A DNA stretch of 64,000 nt from the NCBI RefSeq assembly GCF_011074955.1, contig NZ_WUQJ01000004.1, positions 248,001 to 312,000 on the forward strand, in the 5' to 3' direction. The notes under the pieces are model-generated. The model saw nothing but the letters and a program-made list of their open reading frames with translations, did not search any database and was not told where the DNA came from. The position numbers were made by a program, and so were the translations under genes. Origin of the DNA: Marinobacter caseinilyticus (GTDB lineage: Bacteria > Pseudomonadota > Gammaproteobacteria > Pseudomonadales > Oleiphilaceae). The stretch's first letter is position 1. Every line of letters begins with the position of its first letter. Below, one piece after another: positions 32,288 through 35,000 of this stretch.

Positions 32288-33352
32288 TCAGGCCGAGAGC
32301 TCATGCAACAAGGCTGCGGTGTCGTCCCAACCGATGCAAGGATCCGTAATCGACTGGCCGTACACCAGGTCTCCGTCATCGTTCTGGCGCCCGGGCTCGA
32401 GAAAACTTTCCAGCATCAGGCCGCGAATGGCTGCGTTCCCAGCGTCCTTCTGAGCCATAACGGAACGCGCGACTTCAAGCTGGCGCTCGGCCTGCTTGCA
32501 GGCGTTGTCGTGACTGCAGTCCACCATAATGGCCGGTGACAGGCCTGCGGAGGAGAGCGCCGATGCAGCCTGCCCGATGCTGTTCGCATCGTAATTGGTC
32601 ACGCCCCGACCGCCGCGTAACACCAGATGAGTGTCGGCATTGCCTGGGGTGGTAATCATCGCCGGCTGGCCACTCTCGGTCAGCCCCAACCGATGATGGG
32701 TGTGTGCGGCTGATTTGATGGCATTCAGAGCAACGGCCACACCGCCGTCGGTGCCGTTCTTAAACCCGACCGGCATCGGCAAGCCACTGACCATTTCCCG
32801 ATGGATCTGCGACTCAGTGGTGCGAGCGCCGATGGCGGTCCAGCTCACCAGATCCCCCAGATAGTCCATGGCCATGGGACTCAGCGCTTCGGTGGCCAAG
32901 GGTAACCCGAGCTCTGTCAGGTTAAGCAGTAAGCGGCGCGAGCGGACCAGGCCCTCATTCAAGTCTCCCGCACCAGTGCGGTCAGGGTCGTATAACAGGC
33001 CTTTCCAGCCTACGGTGGTTCTGGGTTTTTCAAGATAGGCCCGCATTACAATCAGAAACCGACCCCCAACCTCATCCGCCAATGCGGCCAATCGCTCACC
33101 ATACTCCAGCGCCGCCACTTCGTCGTGAATGGAGCAGGGCCCGACGACCACCAACGTGCGGTCGTCGTCACCGCGCACAACACGACGAACAGCTTCCCGA
33201 TGCTGGTCAATCTGTTTTGCCAGGAACGGTGCAACCGGTAACTGCTCACGAAGTTCACGGGGCGTAGGCAATAACCGCGCCTGATGGACGGCGGTGTCAG
33301 CACCAGTCGGGCCGGGGCGCTCCAGTGTCTGGGCGTTCAATGGCATGTTCAT
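32288..33352 (-). CDS. 3-Deoxy-7-phosphoheptulonate synthase, class I (DAHP synthase)
   Basis: 354 residues, the usual length of AroF/G/H-type enzymes. Diagnostic elements: VVVGPCSIHD, MRAYLEKPRTTVGWKGLLYDP, GARTTESQIHREM, GFKNGTDG, HLVLRGGRG and VDCSHDNA. It condenses phosphoenolpyruvate with erythrose 4-phosphate in the first step of aromatic amino acid biosynthesis. Which amino acid inhibits the enzyme cannot be told. Upstream lie an aromatic-rich leader peptide and an attenuator, which indicate transcriptional control by charged tRNA for Phe, Trp and Tyr. Confidence 0.93.
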   Translation of the reverse strand: MNMPLNAQTLERPGPTGADTAVHQARLLPTPRELREQLPVAPFLAKQIDQHREAVRRVVRGDDDRTLVVVGPCSIHDEVAALEYGERLAALADEVGGRFLIVMRAYLEKPRTTVGWKGLLYDPDRTGAGDLNEGLVRSRRLLLNLTELGLPLATEALSPMAMDYLGDLVSWTAIGARTTESQIHREMVSGLPMPVGFKNGTDGGVAVALNAIKSAAHTHHRLGLTESGQPAMITTPGNADTHLVLRGGRGVTNYDANSIGQAASALSSAGLSPAIMVDCSHDNACKQAERQLEVARSVMAQKDAGNAAIRGLMLESFLEPGRQNDDGDLVYGQSITDPCIGWDDTAALLHELSA

Positions 33353-33384: not shown

Positions 33385-33420
33385 AAAAAAGCCCCGGCTG
33401 GGCTACCAGTCGGGGCTTTT
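33385..33420 (-). terminator. Attenuator terminator in the DAHP synthase leader
   Basis: On the minus strand AAAAGCCCCGACTGG-TAGC-CCAGCCGGGGCTTTTTT forms a long stem with one mismatch and a U-tract, 33 bases before the DAHP synthase start. It can compete with an antiterminator in which GGCTGCCA (33437-33430) pairs with TGGTAGCC (33408-33401), part of this stem and its loop; GGCTGCC can instead pair with GGCGGCC (33457-33451). This is the usual layout of an amino-acid attenuator. Confidence 0.9.
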
Positions 33421-33483
33421 TGAGTCCGGTGGCAGCCTGGGTTTTCTCCGGGCCGCCTTCCTCGTTAATCGTTTGAAGGTATC

Positions 33484-33561
33484 TTACGGATGGCCCGGAT
33501 GCTGGCTAAAATAAAAGCCATAACCACACCACCAAAAAAACACAGCCGCCACCGAAGCCAT
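33484..33561 (-). CDS. Aromatic leader peptide controlling the DAHP synthase gene
   Basis: A short open frame in the 5' leader encodes MASVAAV-FFWWCGYGFYF-SQHPGHP (25 residues from ATG 33561), ending in TAA at 33484, 27 bases before the first hairpin arm. Eight of eleven consecutive residues are Phe, Trp or Tyr, so ribosome stalling would sense shortage of all three aromatic amino acids. In-frame ATGs at 33603 and 33618 could extend it; ATG 33618 is almost at the expected transcription start, and none has a strong ribosome site. The layout (leader, alternative hairpins, terminator, DAHP synthase) is the attenuation plan known from pheA and trp operons. Confidence 0.85.
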   Translation of the reverse strand: MASVAAVFFWWCGYGFYFSQHPGHP

Positions 33562-33625
33562 CGGCAAGCCGAAAGCTTTCAGAACATTCAATTGACAGGG
33601 CATGTGTGTCGTCTTCATGCTTTTT

Positions 33626-33653
33626 ACTATAACGCTGGTTGTCGGGTTTGCAA
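33626..33653 (-). promoter_or_regulatory. Candidate sigma-70 promoter of the DAHP synthase leader
   Basis: On the minus strand TTGCAA (33653-33648) and TATAGT (33631-33626) are 16 bases apart; transcription would start near 33619, giving a leader of about 265 bases before the DAHP synthase gene that carries the leader peptide and attenuator. Confidence 0.65.
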
Positions 33654-33705: not shown

Positions 33706-34479
33706 ATGAAACCGCACACGTTCTGGTTGTCACTGGTCCTTGTCTTTGCCCTGCCCGCCACCGTCTCGGCGGCGCCGGAAGCAAGAACCTACTTGCTCGA
33801 AAATCGCCCGGCCCAAGACCTCGCCCTGCAACTCCGGGACCTGTATCCCAACAGCCAGTTGGCCATCAGCAGCCATGGCCAGCAGCTGATTGTGCGGGGT
33901 GAACCCGATGTGTTGGAGGAAGTGGCGACCCTGGTTAACACCATGGATGTGGCACCGATTCAGCTCCGTGTAACGGTTCGCTCGGGCACCAGCGGTGACG
34001 GTCAGCGCCAGGGTGGCGGCGTCAGCATCACCACCAACGGTGTGGTTGTTCAGTCTCAGAATAAGGTTACCACCACTCGGCGTCTGCGGGAGCGGAATCT
34101 GGTGATGCAGGATGGCCAGTCGGCCCACATCAGTTCCGGTCAGCTTCGCGCATTGCCGGTGGCGATTGGCGGCGGACGCAACCCCGCCGTGCTATTACAG
34201 CAAGTGGCCGTGCGTAGCGGCTTTGTCGTGAGCCCACAGGTCATTTCAGACCAGTTGGTTGAATTGACTGTAATGGCGTTTGAGAACGATCCCTCACAGG
34301 ATATTCCTGGCTACGACACCGAGGCGGTGATGACCATCCGCAGGGTTGAAACCGGCCAATGGGTAGAACTGGGCAGCAGCACCACACGGCAATCGAGTCG
34401 TCAGTCTGGCAATACCTACGAGGTGGGTGGTCGCGAGAGTGACAACCAGTCGTTCGAAATCAGGGTAGAGGTTTTGTAA
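33706..34479 (+). CDS. Secretin N-domain-like (NolW-like) periplasmic protein
   Basis: 257 residues from ATG 33706; the open frame upstream is the divergent promoter region. The signal peptide is FWLSLVLVFALPATVSAAP. The next part (ARTYLLENRPAQDLALQLRDLYPNSQLAISSHGQQLIVRGEPDVLEEVATLVNTMD) resembles the NolW/secretin N1 repeat of type II/III secretin proteins. The C-terminal half (about 90-257) is beta-rich with Gly/Ser/Gln-rich loops, but has no pore-forming secretin domain. It could be a pilot-like or stand-alone surface protein. No secretion genes are nearby, and its role is unknown. Confidence 0.75.
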   Translation: MKPHTFWLSLVLVFALPATVSAAPEARTYLLENRPAQDLALQLRDLYPNSQLAISSHGQQLIVRGEPDVLEEVATLVNTMDVAPIQLRVTVRSGTSGDGQRQGGGVSITTNGVVVQSQNKVTTTRRLRERNLVMQDGQSAHISSGQLRALPVAIGGGRNPAVLLQQVAVRSGFVVSPQVISDQLVELTVMAFENDPSQDIPGYDTEAVMTIRRVETGQWVELGSSTTRQSSRQSGNTYEVGGRESDNQSFEIRVEVL

Positions 34480-34502: not shown

Positions 34503-35000
34503 TTACTTCCGGAGCAGCACCGACTTGGCTTCGTTGACTTTCGCCGCCAGGTAATCATTACCGCCCCGGTCAGGATGAATTTTCTGCATCAATCGCCGAT
34601 GGGCTGCGACCACGTCGTCAGCACTGCAGCCATCCCCAACCCCCAAAATCTCGCAAGCTTCACGCACGGACATGCCGCCACTCGCCGCAGGGGCCCGCTG
34701 CTGGCTTGCGCCGTCTGCAGGACCGCTATCCGGCTCTTTGTATTGCTGATACAGCCGGTTCAAGAACGGCAAATGGCGCACCAGCAGCGGCAATTTTCGG
34801 AGTAACGGCAGCAGCGCCGCGACCCCGGCAACCAGGACGTGAACCCGCCCTGTGAGCACCAGCAGCAGCAAAATGCCACAGAAAATGCCGACGCCCAGTT
34901 TCCAGCCCGCCGTTTTTTTCTGTTCCGGTGTCAGTCCGCCCCAGTGCTTCAACACCACAAACAGCAGCAGTGCCAACCCAAGGCCTAAAATCCATTGCAT
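34503..35000 (-). CDS. Membrane-anchored DnaJ-domain protein
   Basis: 165 residues. Two hydrophobic segments near the N-terminus (ILGLGLALLLFVVL and VGIFCGILLLLVLTG) are followed by a Lys/Gln-rich stretch and a C-terminal J domain with the HPD motif in MQKIHPDRGGNDYLAAKVNEAKSVLL, placing it among Tim14/Pam18-like J-proteins. It would stimulate DnaK at the inner membrane. Converges on the secretin-like gene 23 bases away. Confidence 0.88.
   Translation of the reverse strand: MQWILGLGLALLLFVVLKHWGGLTPEQKKTAGWKLGVGIFCGILLLLVLTGRVHVLVAGVAALLPLLRKLPLLVRHLPFLNRLYQQYKEPDSGPADGASQQRAPAASGGMSVREACEILGVGDGCSADDVVAAHRRLMQKIHPDRGGNDYLAAKVNEAKSVLLRK

Follow-up and report, generated by a model that had tools for sequence, protein, structure and literature searches.

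What does a short open reading frame rich in aromatic codons do between a promoter and the gene of a DAHP synthase? The question is raised by the minus strand of the window, by which we mean the whole 64,000-nucleotide stretch of Marinobacter caseinilyticus DNA that was analysed. Sequence comparison and folding models lead us to propose, with good confidence, that the leader is a ribosome-mediated transcription attenuator acting on DAHP synthase, and that one peptide in it would sense charged tRNA-Phe, tRNA-Trp and tRNA-Tyr together. Attenuation as such is very likely, and triple sensing is likely. The features on which the proposal is built are the following.

33626..33653, minus strand: predicted sigma-70 promoter, -35 box TTGCAA at 33653-33648 and -10 box TATAGT at 33631-33626
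33484..33618, minus strand: leader peptide ORF of 44 codons plus stop, predicted to be leaderless, ATG at 33618 and TAA at 33486-33484; MKTTHMPCQLNVLKAFGLPMASVAAVFFWWCGYGFYFSQHPGHP
33508..33540, minus strand: putative aromatic sensing codons FFWWCGYGFYF (F27-F37), assigned from masked folding and F/W/Y conservation
33488..33498, minus strand: arm 1, CCGGGCCATCC, within the last ORF codons; predicted to pair with arm 2 unless covered by the ribosome
33448..33457, minus strand: arm 2, GGCGGCCCGG; predicted partner arm 1 or arm 3
33426..33437, minus strand: arm 3, GGCTGCCACCGG; predicted partner arm 2, or arm 4 as antiterminator
33401..33413, minus strand: arm 4, CCGACTGGTAGCC, the 5' half and loop of the terminator; predicted partner arm 3
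33385..33421, minus strand: intrinsic terminator hairpin AAAAAGCCCCGaCTGGtagcCCAGcCGGGGCTTTTTT, assigned from sequence and folding
32288..33352, minus strand: DAHP synthase of the AroFGH type, the regulated gene of the proposal, ATG at 33352; NCBIfam aroFGH, E 8.5e-130

The promoter, the FFWWCGYGFYF leader, the alternative hairpins, the terminator and the DAHP synthase gene had been named in a first-pass annotation, and all are present, with coordinates correct to within a base. The annotation had also called the attenuation system complete. Attenuation by an aromatic leader is well supported, but the three RNA arms described there lack a link to translation, arm 1 being missing.

The DAHP synthase gene and its leader

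The ATG of DAHP synthase lies 32 nt 3' of the terminator, and among named relatives of the enzyme the 31 best all come from Marinobacter. No such leader precedes the second DAHP synthase of the genome (L002) or four paralogs in relatives (L206, L208, L209, L211). A terminator of the form sought was found upstream of none of these five genes, and their upstream short ORFs carry at most 4 aromatic residues per 12, compared with 8 in the window leader. The gene on the other side of the leader promoter (33706-34479, plus strand) is divergent and points away from it; its product has a Secretin_N domain and a Pfam Secretin match below the cut-off. The protein encoded at 34503-35000 on the minus strand has a C-terminal DnaJ-like match slightly under the Pfam cut-off.

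The predicted promoter agrees with the consensus at 9 of 12 positions; one such match occurs in the real sequence and a mean of 0.4 in shuffles. A 5-of-6 -10 box is found in all 118 Marinobacter leaders (TATATT in 84, TATAGT in 34), and it ends 7 nt (115 leaders) or 6 nt (3 leaders) 5' of the ATG. The best -35 box is mostly 18 nt 5' of the -10 box (113 of 118), and the spacing in the window is 16 nt. As the -10 box stands 6-7 nt before the ATG, the transcript would start at the A of the ATG or one base before it. A Shine-Dalgarno-like site precedes the leader ATG in 1 of the 118. We firmly predict that the leader ORF is leaderless, its ATG preceded by one transcribed base at most. The leaderless-type layout recurs at L018, L034, L037, L231, L234, L235, L237 and L238. 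In its place, a GGAG- or AGGA-like site stands in most of the printed leaders of the Pseudomonas and Alcanivorax types; it is absent in those of L268, L269 and L281. The leaders of L229 and L236 possess neither the leaderless-type -10 layout nor a Shine-Dalgarno site.

For five leader peptides tried, one of them incomplete, neither Pfam nor NCBIfam returned a family above cut-off, and the two predicted proteins that match the window leader peptide are both annotated as hypothetical protein. The composition of the peptide bears on the claim that all three aromatic amino acids are sensed at once. Phe, Trp and Tyr each occur at least once in 122 of 122 distinct C-terminal 24-mers (means 3.8, 1.7 and 2.3), which were taken from 177 tabulated leaders (118 from Marinobacter and 59 others) and are related sequences, hence not independent. 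Under assumed residue frequencies, about 7% of random 24-mers would contain all three. The recognition patterns required aromatic motifs (WW-like; FSQ-, FSF- or YWFS-like), so the tally is partly built in. A listing by aromatic density alone gave the same first ORFs as the pattern search, and the L144 leader, which falls outside the recognition pattern, also has Phe, Trp and Tyr. The order of the aromatic residues differs among leaders, e.g. YWQFGFGYFYFS, FFGFSYWYWFS and FYFGYWFS. This conservation favours a triple sensor, and the sensing itself is predicted.

The N-terminal MKTTHxxCQLNVL is strongly conserved among Marinobacter leaders, third codon positions included. Codons 8-12 (33597-33583; TGT CAA TTG AAT GTT) are near-invariant in this way, at 107-118 of 118 leaders per codon. 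They are conserved beyond the need of the peptide and are perhaps an operator, initiation or pausing element.

A five-arm model of the proposed RNA switch

The hairpin scheme of the first-pass annotation used three segments on the minus strand: GGCGGCC(CGG) at 33457-33448, GGCTGCCA at 33437-33430 and TGGTAGCC at 33408-33401 inside the terminator. The segments exist, but the first of them, our arm 2, starts (33457) 27 nt past the stop codon and 51 nt past the last aromatic codon, and is therefore beyond the reach of a ribosome on either. The three-arm scheme alone was rejected, as no part of it responds to the ribosome. A further segment, CCGGGCC at 33498-33492 with additional pairs to 33488, is complementary to arm 2 (33457-33448) and lies within the last codons of the ORF. 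We model the leader as a five-arm design with the pairings 1:2, 2:3, 3:4 and the terminator 4:5. Arm 4 is common to the 3:4 antiterminator and the terminator, which are thus mutually exclusive. The leader RNA of the window has a better fold than any of 200 dinucleotide shuffles (z -3.3).

In the proposed mechanism, a shortage of any aromatic charged tRNA would stall the ribosome within F27-F37, before its front edge has reached arm 1. That arm would be free to form 1:2, arm 3 would be left for arm 4, the terminator would not form and DAHP synthase would be transcribed. With all three charged tRNAs plentiful, the ribosome would reach the stop codon and cover arm 1, and 2:3 and the terminator would form.

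This mechanism was modelled by masked folding of the RNA made before the 3' arm of the terminator. Everything up to the front edge of the ribosome was removed, and RNA behind the ribosome cannot pair; the folds describe an equilibrium without kinetics. With the edge 13 nt from the first base of the A-site codon, 10.4-11.0 expected 3:4 pairs were computed for the window with the ribosome on F27-F37 and 2.4 with the ribosome at the stop. The plateau also takes in the non-aromatic codons V26, C31, G32 and G34, and the lone F16 is outside it. Over the whole ORF of the window, fewer than 2 pairs of 3:4 are expected at codons 1-19. Moving the edge within 9-17 nt shifts the plateau by one or two codons: at 9-13 nt each of the eight F/W/Y codons in the run has at least 10.4 pairs, and at 15-17 nt Y36 or F37 falls to 6.7-8.2. 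Disruption in silico lowers the 3:4 pairs at W30 from 11.0 to 4.6 for arm 1 and to 3.5 for arm 4, so that loss of the arm missing from the three-arm scheme removes most of the computed switch.

Among 171 distinct sequences, the best aromatic stall exceeds the stop by 3 or more 3:4 pairs in 143. The 28 without such a switch are L035, L234, L281, 3 of 3 in group f43a, 7 of 10 in f43c, 2 of 18 in Pse and 13 of 115 in Marinobacter. Over the last 45 codons of 60 sequences taken from a longer list, aromatic codons show more 3:4 pairing than the others in 59. Circular shifts do as well in a mean fraction of 0.07, the fraction being 0.1 or less in 46 of the 60. As for the half-height edge of the sensing window, it falls no more than 3 codons from the last aromatic codon in 35 sequences and as far as 10 codons from it in the others. 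The fold computed with no ribosome is mixed, and for this reason the idea that the untranslated leader is ON by default was dropped.

The pairings recur among relatives. In one printed example from each of 18 groups, inspected by eye, the best duplex of the ORF tail is 1:2, the best hairpin of the spacer is mostly 2:3 and the best duplex between spacer and terminator is mostly 3:4. For the 18 groups, made by hand with up to 6 sequences each, the mean z against within-sequence shuffles is negative in all 18, from -1.4 to -5.0 for 1:2 and from -1.7 to -4.5 for 3:4; the mean shuffle fraction in the weakest groups is 0.13 (1:2) and 0.14 (3:4). When arms were swapped between groups, foreign arms often paired equally well (fraction at least equal to own 0.00-0.85 for 1:2 and 0.03-0.85 for 3:4), a test that discriminates poorly because the arm sequences are alike between groups. 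L236 offers a single case of arm 1 pairing, GCCAAGCTGCC with GGCAGTTTGGC.

Covariation was assessed against shuffles that leave the relatedness of the sequences in place. Set A1 holds 33 rows out of 36 picked at <92% identity among 109 distinct sequences; L139, L163 and L164 were excluded, and the ends of rows L034 and L037 were set by hand. The OFF structure (2:3 plus terminator) is paired in 98.8% of A1 cells, with double changes in 4 pairs (equalled in 1 of 500 shuffles) and 9 cells (0 of 500) and a covariation score reached in 0 of 500. The ON structure (1:2 plus 3:4) is paired in 91.0% of cells, a figure that falls to 46.3% or less when it is shifted by 1-3 columns. Of its measures, the 3 double-change cells alone stand out from the shuffles (22 of 500); the others are unremarkable (cells paired 95, double-change pairs 94 and covariation score 249 of 500). 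In 29 of the 33 sequences a C-A mismatch leaves one position of 1:2 unpaired. In 23 more divergent sequences, with arms assigned by script, there are 15 double-change cells in 3:4 (0 of 1000 shuffles) and 8 in 2:3 (1 of 1000). Counted by pairs with a double change, neither stands out (236 and 119 of 1000). Pair 2 of 3:4 is G-C in 13 of these sequences and A-U in 10. The 1:2 pairing fails to clear the control, with 4 double-change cells in 20 rows (104 of 1000 shuffles), 3 of the 23 rows having been excluded from this count for a bulged register.

The covariation in relatives' leaders, named as a check in the first-pass annotation, supports the predicted antiterminator 3:4, its competitor 2:3 and the terminator. 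The part of the model with the least support is arm 1, whose proposed role is based on its presence across groups, single cases (L236) and the folding test.

Occurrence in the Pseudomonadales and the P15 family

An aroFGH-type enzyme was found at E 1e-120 or better in 120 of 124 Marinobacter genomes. We examined 119 upstream regions, the window included; the 120th locus starts at a contig end. The first-pass annotation had made its reading depend on conservation of the peptide in relatives, and the leader is present in 118 of the 119 regions, 117 by pattern and L144 by eye. The only region without it, L115, has just 25 bases before the gene. Sequence comparison shows that the genus retains the peptide and its location ahead of DAHP synthase together with the complementary arms and terminator, and that other families of the order have these elements in altered sequence. 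In total 182 leaders were collected; five (L230, L280, L282, L283, L285) were missed by the terminator pattern though their terminators are visible.

A covariance model built from Marinobacter-type leaders (R1) gave some match at E 0.01 in 191 of 390 genomes and none in 199. Among the R1 loci listed outside the genus (L228-L241, n=14), 13 precede DAHP synthase and L239 does not. Seven of 20 further loci picked from the R1 and P15 lists precede DAHP synthase (L280-L283, L285-L287) and 13 do not. Among the 13 are L284, a weak hit of P15 too, and L289, where the sole match is one of 41% in another part of the locus. L239 and all of the 13 but L289 resemble ordinary terminators and were rejected as leaders.

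The Rfam family RF00627, "Pseudomonas sRNA P15", matches 6 of 12 loci tested. Across the order it has matches at E 0.01 in 49 of 390 genomes, 20 of them above the cut-off. In each of the 30 best-scoring RF00627 loci an aromatic leader ORF is present and DAHP synthase follows; 7 of 8 weaker P15 hits fetched by place agree with this, the exception being L284. R1 and P15 coincide in position in several genomes, e.g. G287, G241, G485 and G214. At the gathering cut-off of RF00627 (70 bits) there is no match in the window or L001, and at E 0.01 none in G000. The window leader is a relative of P15 by position and shared loci, not a member. P15 shares with it similar arms and terminator, the aromatic ORF and the downstream DAHP synthase, whereas most printed ORFs of the P15 type have a Shine-Dalgarno site and many of the loci have a second aromatic ORF downstream. 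P15 is probably the Pseudomonas counterpart of the leader, and we infer that its short RNA is the terminated leader.

A second short aromatic ORF that includes Trp codons (e.g. YYRYDWRFS, GRTGWRFIGGWRY) lies between the first terminator and DAHP synthase in 32 of 45 non-Marinobacter loci. It was also seen by eye at L018 and L021 and is absent in the window. This ORF could form a second stage, perhaps a translational one. In several Pseudomonas-type leaders inspected by eye (e.g. L243, L247), GGGTAT in the aromatic run is complementary, wholly or partly, to ATACC(C) just past the stop; an extra hairpin is possible in these leaders.

Known attenuators and alternative readings

The window leader shares its leader peptide, alternative hairpins and intrinsic terminator with the E. 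coli trp and pheA attenuators, in which stalling likewise leads to read-through. Each of these senses a single amino acid, and its sensing codons are inside arm 1, so that the stalled ribosome covers arm 1. In the window, the codons stand just before arm 1 and a stalled ribosome would leave it free; the scheme consequently needs one arm more than those of trp and pheA. The contrast with single-amino-acid leaders drawn in the first pass is correct for trp and pheA, but multi-residue leaders exist, among them those of ilv and thr. Another is aroR of Corynebacterium glutamicum, in which, in the parts of PMC11802643 and PMC4046766 available to us, an aromatic leader peptide precedes the DAHP synthase gene aroF and ribosome-mediated attenuation is described. 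Its run is Phe-Tyr-Phe with no Trp reported in those parts, the organism belongs to another phylum and the likeness is one of description. The uORFC-13-1 motif before Acholeplasma aroF is also alike, as an upstream ORF with one or more Phe codons, beside a terminator and before DAHP synthase; according to the accessible portion of PMC8632094, it has Phe only and a ribosome binding site, comes from another phylum and is bioinformatic.

In the open-licence literature we found no paper that describes P15, or the leader of a DAHP synthase in Pseudomonas or Marinobacter, as an attenuator for all three aromatic amino acids, and no report of the triple sensor, the leaderless start or the identity of P15. 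A term search of the main text of a genome-wide attenuator paper (PMC2965389) gave no occurrence of DAHP, aroF or aromatic. Ribosome-mediated attenuation is known as a kind, and the triple-sensing variant of the leader appears to be new.

The nearest alternative is that the attenuator effectively senses one or two amino acids, e.g. Trp and Phe, and that the other aromatic codons are historical. We regard this as possible but doubtful. The precedent is aroR, on which Tyr availability has no effect despite its Phe-Tyr-Phe run (PMC11802643, in the part available), and the departure of Y36 or F37 from the plateau at an edge of 15-17 nt points the same way. Yet all eight aromatic codons hold at edges of 9-13 nt, and the 122 distinct C-termini all keep Phe, Trp and Tyr despite the changing order, which argues for the triple sensor.

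The conserved N-terminus of the Marinobacter peptides, the filing of P15 as an sRNA and the Sinorhizobium leader peptide peTrpL, which acts in trans (PMC7298713, seen in part), would fit a role in trans for the peptide or the terminated leader RNA, with attenuation secondary. That N-terminus is not seen in Pseudomonas-type leaders, and the part common to all is the aromatic run with its arms before DAHP synthase; a main role in trans is therefore unlikely. Apart from a riboswitch proposal, we know of no described function for P15. That proposal came from synteny shared with a TPP riboswitch (PMC2527527, in the part seen), and the available part of PMC2375449 mentions P15 once, without a function. 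A metabolite-binding riboswitch before DAHP synthase is highly improbable here, as no Rfam family, and hence no described aptamer such as a T-box or riboswitch, matches the window at gathering scores. In addition, the overlapping arms come after an aromatic ORF whose conservation is at the protein level, and the computed switch tracks the aromatic codons.

Ribosome-mediated attenuation through the aromatic peptide can be extended to a wider reading, for and against which we judge the case evenly balanced. One ancestral F/W/Y ribosome sensor would have persisted across the Pseudomonadales lineages, with initiation alternating between leaderless and Shine-Dalgarno types while the core was kept. 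P15 would be its terminated leader, and the tandem second ORF would make a two-stage gate in most non-Marinobacter loci. If the proposed attenuator is real, the Pseudomonadales, much-used laboratory and industrial strains among them, would have a single named control point for the total supply of aromatic amino acids, and a function would be assigned to P15, an Rfam family filed as an sRNA. The leader would also serve as a natural test of how a ribosome in a single passage reports on three tRNAs, and of how attenuation works when the message is leaderless.
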